Below are positions 8,514 to 17,186 of a DNA stretch of 39,584 bases, in pieces (position 1 is the first letter of the stretch; each line of letters begins with the position of its first letter). The stretch lies in the IMG/VR virus record IMGVR_UViG_3300020122_000326, positions 1-39,584 of that record. One strand, 5' to 3'. This DNA comes from a virus. Below the pieces are notes generated by a model, which was given only the letters and a program-made list of their open reading frames with translations, made no database searches and had not been told where the DNA came from. A program made the translations under genes and the position numbers.

Positions 8514-8729
8514 TTGGTGACAATTGGTGACAAAAAAGTTGCGCTGGGATGCGCTTTCTTGCGCTGACAGGAGTTTTCGATGGATGGGAGAGATATCGAG
8601 ATCGTGCAATAATGCCAATGGTTTGAGGGGATTTTGGATTGGACGCGTCGCAGGATACAAACCTGCGACGCATGCCGTCGTACCAGCGGTTTTATGATGC
8701 GGGTTCCCATTGGTGACACTTTGGTGACA
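8514..8729. other. attP: Candidate phage attachment site attP
   Basis: A perfect 10-bp inverted repeat (GCGTCGCAGG / CCTGCGACGC) around a 7-bp spacer ATACAAA lies at 8645-8671, the layout of a tyrosine-recombinase core. On each side there is a pair of direct TTGGTGACA repeats (8514 and 8524; 8710 and 8721), spaced 10-11 bp, as expected of integrase arm sites. The hairpin has no T tract, so it is not a terminator. The integrase is encoded nearby with one gene between. The rest of the 358-base intergenic region 8422-8779 holds no gene. Confidence 0.65.
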
Positions 8730-8779
8730 ACTTTTAGGGTCTCGGAAAGCATCTTACTTTCAAATCCTCCGGCCATTCC

Positions 8780-9493
8780 TCAGGGTCTCCCCTCTTCCAG
8801 GATGATCGTTCTAAGGTTTATCGGGCCCAATAGCGGCTCGAGACTGAGGAAACGGACAATGGCGGGGATCTTAAGAAGGTGAGGAACGCGTTCATTAGCC
8901 CTTTGCTGATCTTCGCAAGACGCTCCGATCCAGACGTTGTCCGGAGGAGCTAACTCTGATTCCCAGCCGGCGAGCCAAAGCCGGAAGCTTCGTCCAGAAT
9001 TTGGGCCAGTGTGGACTTCGTGCATATAGACCTCGCCGATATGCTCAAAGAAGTTTTCCGGCCTTTTGGTGAGCAATAACCAGTCAAGATTCGGGGTTTC
9101 ATAAATCAGTTTCAGGAAATTTGACCTTACCTCGATCGGATCCAGAGGTTTCCCATCCTGGTCGATAATGCCGCCCGGCATCTTATCGAGCCAATCGATC
9201 ATCGATGGAAACCATCGGCCTCTCGTGCCTTCCTTCGCATGGTTCGCGTTAATTCGGCGCGCGTCATTCCAGAAGCCTTTGCTCAAAACCCTCGTCGCCT
9301 TGTCACCCCATACCGGGCGAGTTTCCCAATCCGAGAATTCGGCTCTTTTGTAAGCGGTGCGGAAAATGCGCTCGAGCCTGGTGAGCGCCAGCGCCATCGC
9401 GTAACAAAATGTGCAGCCGGGCGAAACGCACGAGCAGCCTAGATATGGGCCTCCCGTATGATCGGTCCATTGGATTCCAGTTGTTTCGCTCAT
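8780..9493 (-). CDS. Phage Gp37/Gp68 family protein (DUF5131)
   Basis: The N-terminus 'GIQWTDHTGGPYLGCSCVSPGCTFCYA' corresponds to the family signature 'I.WT..TWNP..GC...SPGC..CYA', with cysteines at 20, 22, 27 and 30 that probably bind metal. The radical-SAM-like barrel that follows has 'LDWLLLTKRP' and 'VWIGASCEDQ', and ends with 'RFLSLEPLLGPI'. The length of 237 residues fits. I chose the ATG at 9493 because the family starts there and because it lies five bases after the integrase stop. The family is common in phages and prophages, and its function is not established. Here it is co-transcribed with the integrase. Confidence 0.85.
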   Translation of the reverse strand: MSETTGIQWTDHTGGPYLGCSCVSPGCTFCYAMALALTRLERIFRTAYKRAEFSDWETRPVWGDKATRVLSKGFWNDARRINANHAKEGTRGRWFPSMIDWLDKMPGGIIDQDGKPLDPIEVRSNFLKLIYETPNLDWLLLTKRPENFFEHIGEVYMHEVHTGPNSGRSFRLWLAGWESELAPPDNVWIGASCEDQQRANERVPHLLKIPAIVRFLSLEPLLGPINLRTIILEEGRP

Positions 9494-9497
9494 AATG

Positions 9498-10880
9498 TTA
9501 GGCAGGTCGGGTCCATGCAAAAAGGGGCAGCAGGTCCGCACGGTCGGGCATCAGGGAGAACCAGCGCTCGGCAGTGCGTTTCATTTGGGTGTCGATGCGT
9601 TTGTAGTTTTTCCGGATGATGGCCGGGCTGTTCCCGGCTTGATCCGCGACGAATTCGATGTTGCGGGTGAGCGCTGTGCGGTAGGAGATGAAACTTTTTC
9701 TGAGGGCATTCTTTTTTGGGCCCCTGATTTGGGCTTTGGTCCGTAGCCGGCATAATGAGTTGCTGCTGTTCTCGAGGGGACAGATTCTTCCGTTGGCTCG
9801 AGCATAGGGTTTCAGCCAGGCGATGAGGTTATCAGGCATGTCCACTACGCGATCGTTTCCGGTTTTGGATTCGTGCTTGCCGATGAAAATGCTTTTGCTT
9901 TCCCAATCGATGTTGGACCAGTCCAGGTGCGCGGCCTTTTCTTCATTCATCTCCCCGTGGCGTACGCCGGCAAATGCGGTTATGCAAATGAGAGGCACGA
10001 GCTTCCTCCCGGCTTCGTAGCTTTCCGCATAGTTCAAAAGTCTAAGGAGTTCCTCGGGGGAATAGAGATTTACCGCCACAGGTGGCGGATTGGGATCGGA
10101 GACCTCGGATAAGATGTTCCAATCTTTGCGAAGGTAGCCTCGCGATTTTGAGAATGTGAACAGGGCCGCGATGGCTTTCAGATAGTTGCGCCTGGTCCGG
10201 AGATTAACTGTCCGGGCCGGACCGGCGCTAAGGGAATCCAGCCAGTCATCGATGTCCCGGGCCCGGAGCTCGCTCATCGTGCCGGCGAACTTTGCGGCGA
10301 AGCGCTCGAGCATTTTCTTGAGGATGCGAGTCCATTTGCCGCCCATCTGTCTCCTGGCGAAAAATTCATCGATGGTCTTCGGGATTGTTGCCTGGAGGAC
10401 ACCGGCCGGGTTTTGGGCGACATAGAATCGGGCTGCTTCTAAAGGGGTAACGCCGGCGGGAAGAATTTGCACAGATTCTGTATAAATTCCGACGGCGATT
10501 TCGAGAGGAGGATCGCCGATTGCGTGGAGAAGCTCGCGGGAGCGGCGGAAGGAAGCGCGGTCGGATTCGGTAAATTGGCTTTGGGCGATTTGCCCATCGA
10601 GAAGGTCGACGGCAATTTGCCTGGCGCGGCGCCGGGCGGACTCGATGGTCGCCCGCTTTTCGCGTTTGCGGCCGGTTCCATCGCTCCAGATGATTGTGTG
10701 GCTGCGATAATCCTTCCGGCGTTTCTTATCGCGCCACTTGGTTTTATAGATTCGGACGGTGACCGATCCCTGCTTAATTTCGATGGGCTTTGCGCGTCGC
10801 CTGGTTTGCTCGGCTTCGTCGACATGGATTTGGCCGGAGCGATCGGCAGTAATAGAGAGTCTGAGTTCCGCGGTGTTCAT
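9498..10880 (-). CDS. int: Tyrosine recombinase, phage integrase (460 aa)
   Basis: The C-terminal half is a tyrosine recombinase catalytic domain: Arg307 in 'AFAGVRHGE', Lys339 in 'HESKTGN', Arg394 in 'NALRKSF' and nucleophile Tyr426 in 'AGNSPAIIRKNY'. The core-binding SAM-like domain is at about 165-250, and the basic N-terminus would contact arm sites. Both usual histidines of the HxxR and second His/Trp positions are Asn here (391 and 417), a variation I associate with Verrucomicrobia integrases. It should integrate and excise the phage at the attP candidate near 8650. It lies in the minus-strand operon behind the RHH regulator, so it is probably controlled by that switch. Confidence 0.92.
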   Translation of the reverse strand: MNTAELRLSITADRSGQIHVDEAEQTRRRAKPIEIKQGSVTVRIYKTKWRDKKRRKDYRSHTIIWSDGTGRKREKRATIESARRRARQIAVDLLDGQIAQSQFTESDRASFRRSRELLHAIGDPPLEIAVGIYTESVQILPAGVTPLEAARFYVAQNPAGVLQATIPKTIDEFFARRQMGGKWTRILKKMLERFAAKFAGTMSELRARDIDDWLDSLSAGPARTVNLRTRRNYLKAIAALFTFSKSRGYLRKDWNILSEVSDPNPPPVAVNLYSPEELLRLLNYAESYEAGRKLVPLICITAFAGVRHGEMNEEKAAHLDWSNIDWESKSIFIGKHESKTGNDRVVDMPDNLIAWLKPYARANGRICPLENSSNSLCRLRTKAQIRGPKKNALRKSFISYRTALTRNIEFVADQAGNSPAIIRKNYKRIDTQMKRTAERWFSLMPDRADLLPLFAWTRPA

Positions 10881-11450: not shown

Positions 11451-11738
11451 TTATCCGGCATTCTTCTTCTTTGGTTTGGGCTCTTCGACGAGGGCGGTTT
11501 CTTCGCGATGCGGTGGGTAACTGGATATATTTTTTTCGACGACGACATGCGTTACATCGAACTTGATCGGCATGGCGAGCTGATAGTCATTTTTCTCAAT
11601 GGCTTCGACCGCCGCCTCGACAGCAGCCTGAGCCAGTGCGTGCTTTTTCATTTTGAGCCGGTCCGCACACTCCTGGACCCTATTGTCTAATTCTTTGGAG
11701 ATTCGCAGTGAGAGGCGGGTCATTTTGTAATCGCTCAT
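11451..11738 (-). CDS. Ribbon-helix-helix DNA-binding regulator (95 aa)
   Basis: Residues 4-50 fit the RHH fold: a strand 'KMTRLSLRISKEL', then two helices ('DNRVQECADRLKMKK' and 'HALAQAAVEAAVEAIEK'). A second half of unknown fold ends in a Lys-rich tail. RHH dimers of the Arc/MetJ/CopG type bind short palindromes with the strand in the major groove. The gene is divergent from a second RHH gene, separated by 78 bases packed with inverted repeats and overlapping promoters. Its position at the head of the integrase operon makes it the best candidate for the lysogeny repressor. Confidence 0.8.
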   Translation of the reverse strand: MSDYKMTRLSLRISKELDNRVQECADRLKMKKHALAQAAVEAAVEAIEKNDYQLAMPIKFDVTHVVVEKNISSYPPHREETALVEEPKPKKKNAG

Positions 11739-11759
11739 GGAAACGGGATATCATGAATA

Positions 11760-11789
11760 ATAGTAGAACGCAATCTTTTTTGTTGACAA
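11760..11789 (-). promoter_or_regulatory. Leftward promoter of lysogeny operon
   Basis: On the minus strand TTGTCA (11784-11789) and TACTAT (11760-11765) are 18 bp apart. The -35 overlaps the rightward -35 back to back. Transcription should begin about 15 bases upstream of the leftward RHH ATG. Confidence 0.55.
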
Positions 11790-11810
11790 AGTAGTGAATT
11801 TCACTATTAT
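11783..11810 (+). promoter_or_regulatory. Rightward early promoter
   Basis: A consensus -35 TTGACA (11783-11788) and -10 TATTAT (11805-11810) are separated by 16 bp. The -10 ends six bases before the ATG of the next gene, so transcription should start at or just before the start codon and give a leaderless mRNA. Confidence 0.75.
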
Positions 11811-11816
11811 TCACTC

Positions 11817-12044
11817 ATGAGCAAGAAATCTAAGGGCGGAGTTGTTGATTCCGCGAATGAGCCGCTAATCCCTTTCCAGGTGAAAACCCGGGAGGAGGTC
11901 CGCGAGAAAATGAAGGTGATAGCATCCAAGAACGGTTTGTCTTTGAACGATGTGGCCTCGATGTGCCTAGCTGCTGGCATGCCGATGGTTGAACGGAAGC
12001 TTTCGGAAATTCATCATCCAGAACCGGAGAAGCAAGCCGCTTAG
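11817..12044 (+). CDS. Small RHH-like regulator, first gene of early operon (75 aa)
   Basis: After a short basic N-terminus, residues 17-60 ('LIPFQVKTREEVREKMKVIA' then 'GLSLNDVASMCLAAGM') fit a ribbon-helix-helix fold. The start codon lies right at the predicted transcription start, so translation would be leaderless. It faces the other RHH gene across the shared operator, in the position that cro occupies in lambda. It is probably the antagonist of the leftward RHH regulator or an autorepressor of the early operon. The RHH assignment is by pattern, not by search. Confidence 0.7.
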   Translation: MSKKSKGGVVDSANEPLIPFQVKTREEVREKMKVIASKNGLSLNDVASMCLAAGMPMVERKLSEIHHPEPEKQAA

Positions 12045-16166: not shown

Positions 16167-17186
16167 ATGCGGGTCACGCTTTGGGGTCGCGCTGTGATCG
16201 GGCCACGCCTTCACGAGTGGCGGATGGTGAGTTTGGCGATGGCAGACATCCTGGCTGTGTTCGATTTTAGCCTTCGAGAGCTTAAGATCCTGTCACTCGT
16301 CAGGATGATGTCATTCGGGGCTGGCAAGCCAGAGGTGGAATTGCCAACGTTGGATCATTTCTCTAAGGCATTAAAAATAACCAAGGGCAATGTGAGCGAC
16401 TTGTTGAAAGACCTGGGCGCTGGCAAAGCCGAAAATGCTCCTCCGGGCAGGAGGGTATTGGCGAGAAGAGGAAATTTTTATGGCTTTAGATTTCCAATAA
16501 CGGCTTGGGACGTTTGGCAACGCGTCGAGCAAATCGAGATCATTGACCAGCTCGAAATGTTAGAAAGGCCGGCTTGCCTCCTAACGGCTTTGCGCGACAC
16601 TTTTGTTGAAGCGGTGTTACAGCAAGCCACGGATAGAGCGCCCGTGGCACTACATCAAACGCATGCCAAAGTTCCCGAATCGGGAACCGAGGCACCAACG
16701 CACAACAGACCGTCAGTTCCCGAATCGGGAACTGACGGAGCGTTCCCGAATCGGGAACCATGGAAAAAACGCAATGTTTTTGGGGCCGAAATGGCTCCCG
16801 TTCCCGAATCGGGAACGCCTTGGGGTACAACAGAAGCAAATTTGCAACATTGCAGTTTTGCTCCTAAAGGAGGATCTCTGAAAGAACAAATTTGCAATGT
16901 TGCAAATTTGGAGGTTCCCGATTCGGGAACAGAGGTCGAGTCGAGGGTCGGTAATCGACTAACACCGGAGGAGCAGGAGATTTTTGACGAATGCGGACTC
17001 GTCGGCGCATTTGGCCCAAACCTTGAATCGCGAGGCTGCTGGTTTGCGATGGTTAAGAAGCGTCCGGAGACCGTCAAAGAGCTATTGGGAGAGCTTCGTA
17101 TGCGGCTGCGGGAAGACACCATACGCAATCCAGGCGCATGGATGATGGACAAATGGATCCGATGGAAAAGGCCGGATGATCGCTAA
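16167..17186 (+). CDS. Putative replication initiator containing its own iterons (339 aa)
   Basis: The N-terminal about 110 residues look like a winged-helix DNA-binding domain ('LPTLDHFSKALKITKGNVSD'). Residues about 165-255 are low complexity with repeated 'VPESGT' because the DNA carries palindromic iterons. The C-terminal about 85 residues are helical ('LTPEEQEIFDECGLVGAFGP', 'NPGAWMMDKWIRWKRPDD'). An initiator gene with iterons in its middle is the arrangement of lambda O and its origin. The start may be the first ATG or an ATG 19 or 24 codons later. It follows the early operon and has no recognised helicase or polymerase neighbour, so host replication proteins would be recruited. Confidence 0.7.
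   Translation: MRVTLWGRAVIGPRLHEWRMVSLAMADILAVFDFSLRELKILSLVRMMSFGAGKPEVELPTLDHFSKALKITKGNVSDLLKDLGAGKAENAPPGRRVLARRGNFYGFRFPITAWDVWQRVEQIEIIDQLEMLERPACLLTALRDTFVEAVLQQATDRAPVALHQTHAKVPESGTEAPTHNRPSVPESGTDGAFPNREPWKKRNVFGAEMAPVPESGTPWGTTEANLQHCSFAPKGGSLKEQICNVANLEVPDSGTEVESRVGNRLTPEEQEIFDECGLVGAFGPNLESRGCWFAMVKKRPETVKELLGELRMRLREDTIRNPGAWMMDKWIRWKRPDDR
16671..16930. repeat. ori: Iteron array, probable origin of replication
   Basis: Five 17-bp inverted repeats lie inside the initiator gene at 16671, 16716, 16742, 16800 and 16914. Four read GTTCCCGAATCGGGAAC, and the last has T at its centre and so faces the other way. The second extends to 29 bp (CCGTCA/TGACGG flanks). Between copies 4 and 5 lie two AT-rich elements sharing AAATTTGCAA (16838 and 16888), the second a longer palindrome, which may be the unwinding region. 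Irregular spacing rules out CRISPR. Confidence 0.75.

Follow-up and report, generated by a model that had tools for sequence, protein, structure and literature searches.

Does the intergenic stretch at positions 8514-8729 of a virus genome serve the tyrosine integrase encoded nearby as its phage attachment site (attP) and, if so, what kind of chromosomal site would it be joined to? The window, meaning the whole stretch of DNA analysed, is the 39,584-nt record IMGVR_UViG_3300020122_000326. A 127-bp direct repeat is present at its ends, so the record is probably the whole genome, apparently complete at 39,457 bp and either circular or terminally redundant. Comparison with Pfam and PHROGs showed that its gene products include a tape measure protein, a portal of the lambda type and a terminase (GpA ATPase).

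Two other regions of the window are recorded here in passing. The strongest inverted repeats of the window lie at 16710-16738, 16799-16817 and 16887-16910 within the frame 16167-17186; they are, in this order, a 13-3-13 repeat, CCGTCAGTTCCCGAATCGGGAACTGACGG, a shorter copy of its centre, and CAAATTTGC/GCAAATTTG. These repeats are a possible replication origin or operator. At 11451-12044 two small genes diverge from each other, and the space separating them has AGTGAAT/ATTCACT inverted repeats at 11792-11815. The left gene is weakly similar to Arc (phrog_582, E 0.006), and the pair is a possible lysogeny switch.

Arm repeats, core and integrase of the window

The features that make up the putative attachment site and its surroundings are as follows.

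8514..8532, + strand: left pair of arm-type sites, two copies of TTGGTGACA 10 bp apart, with the same layout in relatives
8539..8565, + strand: three direct repeats, TTGCGCT/ATGCGCT/TTGCGCT, with an exact 10-bp period, assessed by shuffles; predicted excisionase array
8645..8671, no strand: predicted attP core, with core-type integrase sites formed by two inverted repeats of 10 bp around a 7-bp overlap
8710..8729, + strand: right pair of arm-type sites, two copies of TTGGTGACA 11 bp apart
8780..9541, - strand: DUF5131 (Gp37/Gp68 family) gene between integrase and attP (PF07505, 4e-34)
9498..10880, - strand: tyrosine integrase gene, 460 aa (Pfam PF00589, 2.2e-6; phrog_1 integrase, 8e-22)

Copies of TTGGTGACA start at 8514, 8524, 8710 and 8721, all on the + strand, and no further copy was found on either strand of the whole window. 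First-order Markov shuffling of the window gave a mean of 0.12 copies on the + strand over 200 shuffles, and an arrangement of two pairs of any 9-mer was obtained in 0/200. The core, GCGTCGCAGG-ATACAAA-CCTGCGACGC, is a perfect 10-7-10 inverted repeat with the overlap ATACAAA at 8655-8661; an inverted repeat of these dimensions is expected 0.055 times per window (200 first-order Markov shuffles). Its centre is 144 bp from the start of the left arm and 52 bp before the start of the right pair. The four arm copies and the core are where the initial annotation had placed them, and they are far beyond chance. An attP of a lambda-type tyrosine integrase is expected to have inverted core sites with an overlap of 6-8 bp between them, arm-type repeats to the left and right of the core and a tyrosine recombinase gene close by. 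All three were found, the overlap being 7 bp and the integrase gene lying about 0.8 kb from attP. An exact 8-bp inverted repeat was also observed, AAAAGTTG at 8534-8541, just inside the left arm pair, and CAACTTTT at 8728-8735, at the outer end of the right pair; it may be due to chance.

The canonical catalytic residues of tyrosine recombinases are R-K-H-R-H/W-Y. A profile built from 19 relatives of the window integrase matches XerC-like, XerA and XerD structures, with R307, R394 and Y426 invariant in 19/19 integrases and K339 present as K in 17 and as R in two. The histidine usually found three residues before R394 is replaced by N391 in 19/19, and N417 occupies the later H/W position in 17/19, so that asparagine is family-wide at two positions usually occupied by histidine or tryptophan. 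Relatives of the integrase were found at 59 viral and 45 bacterial loci. All but one of the bacterial loci are titled as Verrucomicrobiota groups (44, with one Hydrogenedentota), supporting the phylum previously proposed for the host. The best segments of these bacterial relatives are 25-35% identical, on which measure the host lineage of the window is sampled only distantly. No host could be pinned down through relatives of the terminase, for which 58 genomes gave three at 28-30% identity.

The DUF5131 gene has relatives in 120 phage records and is absent between integrase and attP in two related phages (L112 and L114), where attP directly follows the integrase. It is probably a passenger lying outside the attachment site proper.

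The same layout in related phages

The loci selected by their integrases were searched for two pairs of one 8-mer, with 10-12 bp within a pair and 165-260 bp between pairs. This arrangement was found in 13/104 loci, three of them weak, against 0/104 shuffled loci. All were viral (13/59 viral, 0/45 bacterial loci), and in a bacterial locus the arms would have been divided between attL and attR on integration. The distance from core centre to left arm start is 144 bp in the window, 146 bp in L112, 144 bp in L118, 153 bp in L117, 155 bp in L148, 141 bp in L049 and 155 bp in L114, giving 144-155 bp for the nearest phages with an attP (L114, L112, L117 and L118). From the core centre to the start of the right pair the distance is 52 bp in the window, L112 and L114, and 51 bp in L118. 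The arm sequences themselves vary, being TTGGTGACA in the window, TTGGGGAA in L112, TTGGGTCA in L118 and TTGGGACA in L117. The nearest relative with an attP, L114 (IMGVR_UViG_3300014968_000005), has an integrase 57% identical to that of the window and resembles the window in its paired arms (two of the four are TTGGTGAC), in the core stem GCAGG/CCTGC and in a weaker period-10 repeat. It differs in having the T-loop TTCAAGC followed by an acceptor strand and CCA, in having a palindrome of only 5 bp and in lacking the DUF5131 gene between integrase and attP. A further relative, L115 (integrase 49%), was uninformative, since its contig ends 21 bp past the integrase and its other end has no attP.

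Paired TTGGTGACA arms were found elsewhere at 91 viral loci, the first 80 of which were examined. In nine of the 80 (L010, L015, L027, L030, L031, L034, L049, L055 and L084), additional copies of the same orientation lie at a distance of about 190-212 bp. Most of the 80 contain just one pair, spaced by 12 bp, and these single pairs may be coding repeats.

The three units of the 10-bp-period array start at 8539, 8549 and 8559, directly after the left arms. The period-10 test covered 17 attP regions with 500 shuffles. No shuffle was as good as the window triple (0/500), and triples as strong occurred in 0 or 1/500 shuffles for the window, L112, L118, L117 and L049. The fraction was 0.03-0.042 for L114, L010 and L031 and 0.14-0.93 for the other nine regions. 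An array of this period, weak in L114, is thus present in all four nearest relatives with an attP, with a sequence different from that of the window. The segment 8539-8565 is probably a binding array for an excisionase (recombination directionality factor). No excisionase gene was recognised when 20 window frames were compared with Pfam and six with PHROGs, so the name of the array is one that we infer. RdfS of ICEMlSymR7A is reported to be an excisionase that oligomerises on the DNA beside an arm site, each 10 bp being occupied by one molecule (PMC11963761). The 10-bp spacing beside an arm site is common to the RdfS site and the window, whereas an RdfS-like protein was not identified in the window. 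Judged from sequence comparison, the attP plan of paired arms, predicted 10-bp excisionase array, core and paired arms is kept while the sequences turn over.

The attP of phage lambda is bound by a heterobivalent integrase and has a 7-bp overlap between inverted core sites, arms on both sides comprising five arm sites, excisionase sites inside the left arm and IHF sites. The window resembles it in the 7-bp overlap, the inverted core sites and the arm sites on both sides, as well as in a predicted heterobivalent integrase and predicted excisionase sites inside the left arm, and has four arm sites where lambda has five. Among mycobacteriophages, cores flanked by pairs of arm repeats in direct orientation are described for Giles and L5, and two pairs of 11-bp repeats with the core at a tmRNA T stem for the Cluster K phage CrimD (PMC3203893). 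Arm pairs flank the core in these phages and in the window, while the arm and core sequences differ, L5 has further arm sites and the right pair of CrimD is inverted. The window core also differs in forming a perfect 10-7-10 palindrome with a loop other than a T-loop.

Transfer RNA genes and the chromosomal target

At 27/45 bacterial loci a tRNA or tmRNA gene lies upstream of the integrase frame at a distance of up to about 500 bp, and therefore this integrase family sits at chromosomal tRNA genes; the 45 loci together contain 31 tRNA/tmRNA genes in 363 kb. The attP regions of the phages were then scored for a T stem-loop under a strict rule. Before counting, L116, L128 and L157 were dropped as the same contigs as L112, L027 and L113, as were L015 (arm arrangement as L010) and L124, L129 and L135 (weak two-mismatch arm sets). 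Eight of the 15 regions other than the window passed (L112, L118, L117, L148, L049, L155, L169 and L154), and in L155, L169 and L154 the T-arm is on the opposite strand, nearer the left arms (centre at 62). The regions of L149, L113, L027, L010, L030, L031 and L034 failed, although those of L149, L027, L030 and L031 are T-loop-like by eye. The T-arm of L114 was recognised by reading and stands outside this count. A loop TTCRA within a T stem was sought in the window attP and not found, and the window loop TTTGTAT/ATACAAA is not a T-loop. An Rfam search for partial tRNAs found none in the window, but as it also missed the positive controls L112 and L114 this negative carries no information.

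The origin of a long palindrome can be followed in L112. On the right-arm side, one half of the L112 and L118 sites is identical at 23/23 bases to a chromosomal tRNA-Asp(GTC) of a sampled genome (G012). The L112 core is an 18-7-18 palindrome whose right half and loop match the 3' end of this tRNA, while its left half, gagcggcggg, mirrors the right half where the tRNA reads ggttacggg; L118 shares these 23 bases, and its left half resembles the tRNA. As the left half of L112 is a mirror of the right half and not tRNA, its long palindrome was made by the phage. By analogy, and with the core stem of the window being that of the L114 T-arm, the phage probably also made one half of the window palindrome by mirroring the other, in which case only one half of the window core would need to match attB.

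The core at a prophage boundary, the check proposed in the initial annotation, was sought and none was found. The 19-bp core occurred at no place with 0 or 1 mismatch in 387 Verrucomicrobiota genomes. Allowing two mismatches gave 28 places, compared with 10 for the reversed control. Of the 28, 20 were fetched and no called tRNA gene overlaps any of them; one, L240, has the exact inner 17-mer without a tRNA. A search of the 387 genomes for the overlap plus one half gave nothing convincing, just two places with three mismatches, and the corresponding search of 245 genomes gave only a single exact 17-mer, which lies in the frame of a P-type ATPase. Thus no chromosomal attB sharing the overlap was found in the 387 and 245 genomes. 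Given that no close host genome was found, this empty search does not refute the reading of the stretch as an attP. In viral contigs an exact 17-mer, GCAGGATACAAACCTGC, was found at seven loci in three distinct sequence contexts with no arm repeats and was dismissed as chance; the overlap plus one half gave 0 and 1 places, the single one (L246) lying in a record without an integrase match and lacking neighbouring arm repeats. Away from called tRNA genes of another, integrase-bearing genome (G017), a T-arm copy, GCAGGTTCGAATCCTGC, was noticed at 1501-1517 of locus L221 and is perhaps an old attachment scar.

The initial annotation had suggested a tRNA-Thr(UGU) gene as one possible target, with the core corresponding to its anticodon arm. 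The 5-7-5 size and the minus-strand loop TTTGTAT do fit an anticodon arm, and such arms are known integration targets (PMC8371274). A tRNA-Thr(UGU) pattern was found at 58 places (two of which do not look like tRNAs) in 54 of 59 sampled Verrucomicrobiota genomes, 0/58 having the loop TTTGTAT or the stem GCAGG/CCTGC. Furthermore, the relatives have a T stem-loop at the core position, that of L114 having the same stem around TTCAAGC, and no tRNA-restoring T-arm follows the window core on either strand. This target is therefore hardly credible. A second possibility, that the present attB is a tRNA gene of unusual or decayed form and the core its T-arm, has more in its favour: the stem is identical to the T-arm stem of L114 at the same place, TTTGTAT agrees with TTCGAAT at 5/7 positions and the minus strand continues as GACGCGTCCA, close to an acceptor strand and CCA. 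To our knowledge C56 and A58 are nearly universal in tRNAs; both are changed here, the CCA is one base out of register and no such tRNA was found among the 387 genomes, so we consider this explanation unlikely.

An operator or a terminator hairpin with repressor sites around it, and hence no attachment site at all, would agree with the intergenic location and the long perfect hairpin. Against this, there is no run of T after the hairpin on either strand, the arm 9-mer is absent elsewhere in the genome and the layout matches, nearly to the base pair, the attP of other integrases whose cores are tRNA fragments; we rate it as highly improbable. A tyrosine-recombinase attachment site had already been proposed in the initial annotation. 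The reading of 8514-8729 as the attP of a lambda-type tyrosine integrase, in a temperate phage of Verrucomicrobiota, is backed by a layout that agrees position for position with the related phages and by the integrase gene nearby. Points against it are the failure to find an attB in the genomes searched, a loop that is not a T-loop and the variation of the arm sequences among relatives; we nevertheless regard it with considerable confidence.

A model for the attachment site

On the evidence of its anatomy, the stretch would function as follows. By homology and geometry, the N-terminal domain of the integrase would hold the paired TTGGTGACA arm sites on either side while the catalytic domain would occupy the two 10-bp half-sites and cut 7 bp apart around ATACAAA, and the circular phage genome would be joined to a chromosomal attB having the same 7-bp overlap. 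For excision, an excisionase on the triple repeat of 10-bp period would reshape the left arm. The window core would derive from a tRNA T stem-loop site, as in the relatives; it seems to have drifted from a T-arm and to have become symmetric. Comparison of L112 with the chromosomal tRNA gene suggests how, in that one half would have been turned into a mirror copy of the other to give a longer palindrome with two equal half-sites. As a tentative and rather doubtful extension, the attP cores of this lineage may become perfect palindromes by copying of the tRNA-restoring half onto the free half, and the window core may have left the tRNA gene, its T-loop lost and its stem kept, with the integrase now acting on non-tRNA or relaxed sites.

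In the literature collection searched, no paper was found on a Verrucomicrobiota tyrosine recombinase with a tRNA and an attP, and those found on prophage attachment sites do not, judged by titles and abstract openings, deal with this subject. For a phylum in which genetic tools are scarce, the window provides a sequence-defined cassette of integrase and attP, and together with its relatives a natural series of attP sites for asking how integrases change their targets. If the symmetric core has indeed left the tRNA gene, a switch of integration target would have been caught in progress.
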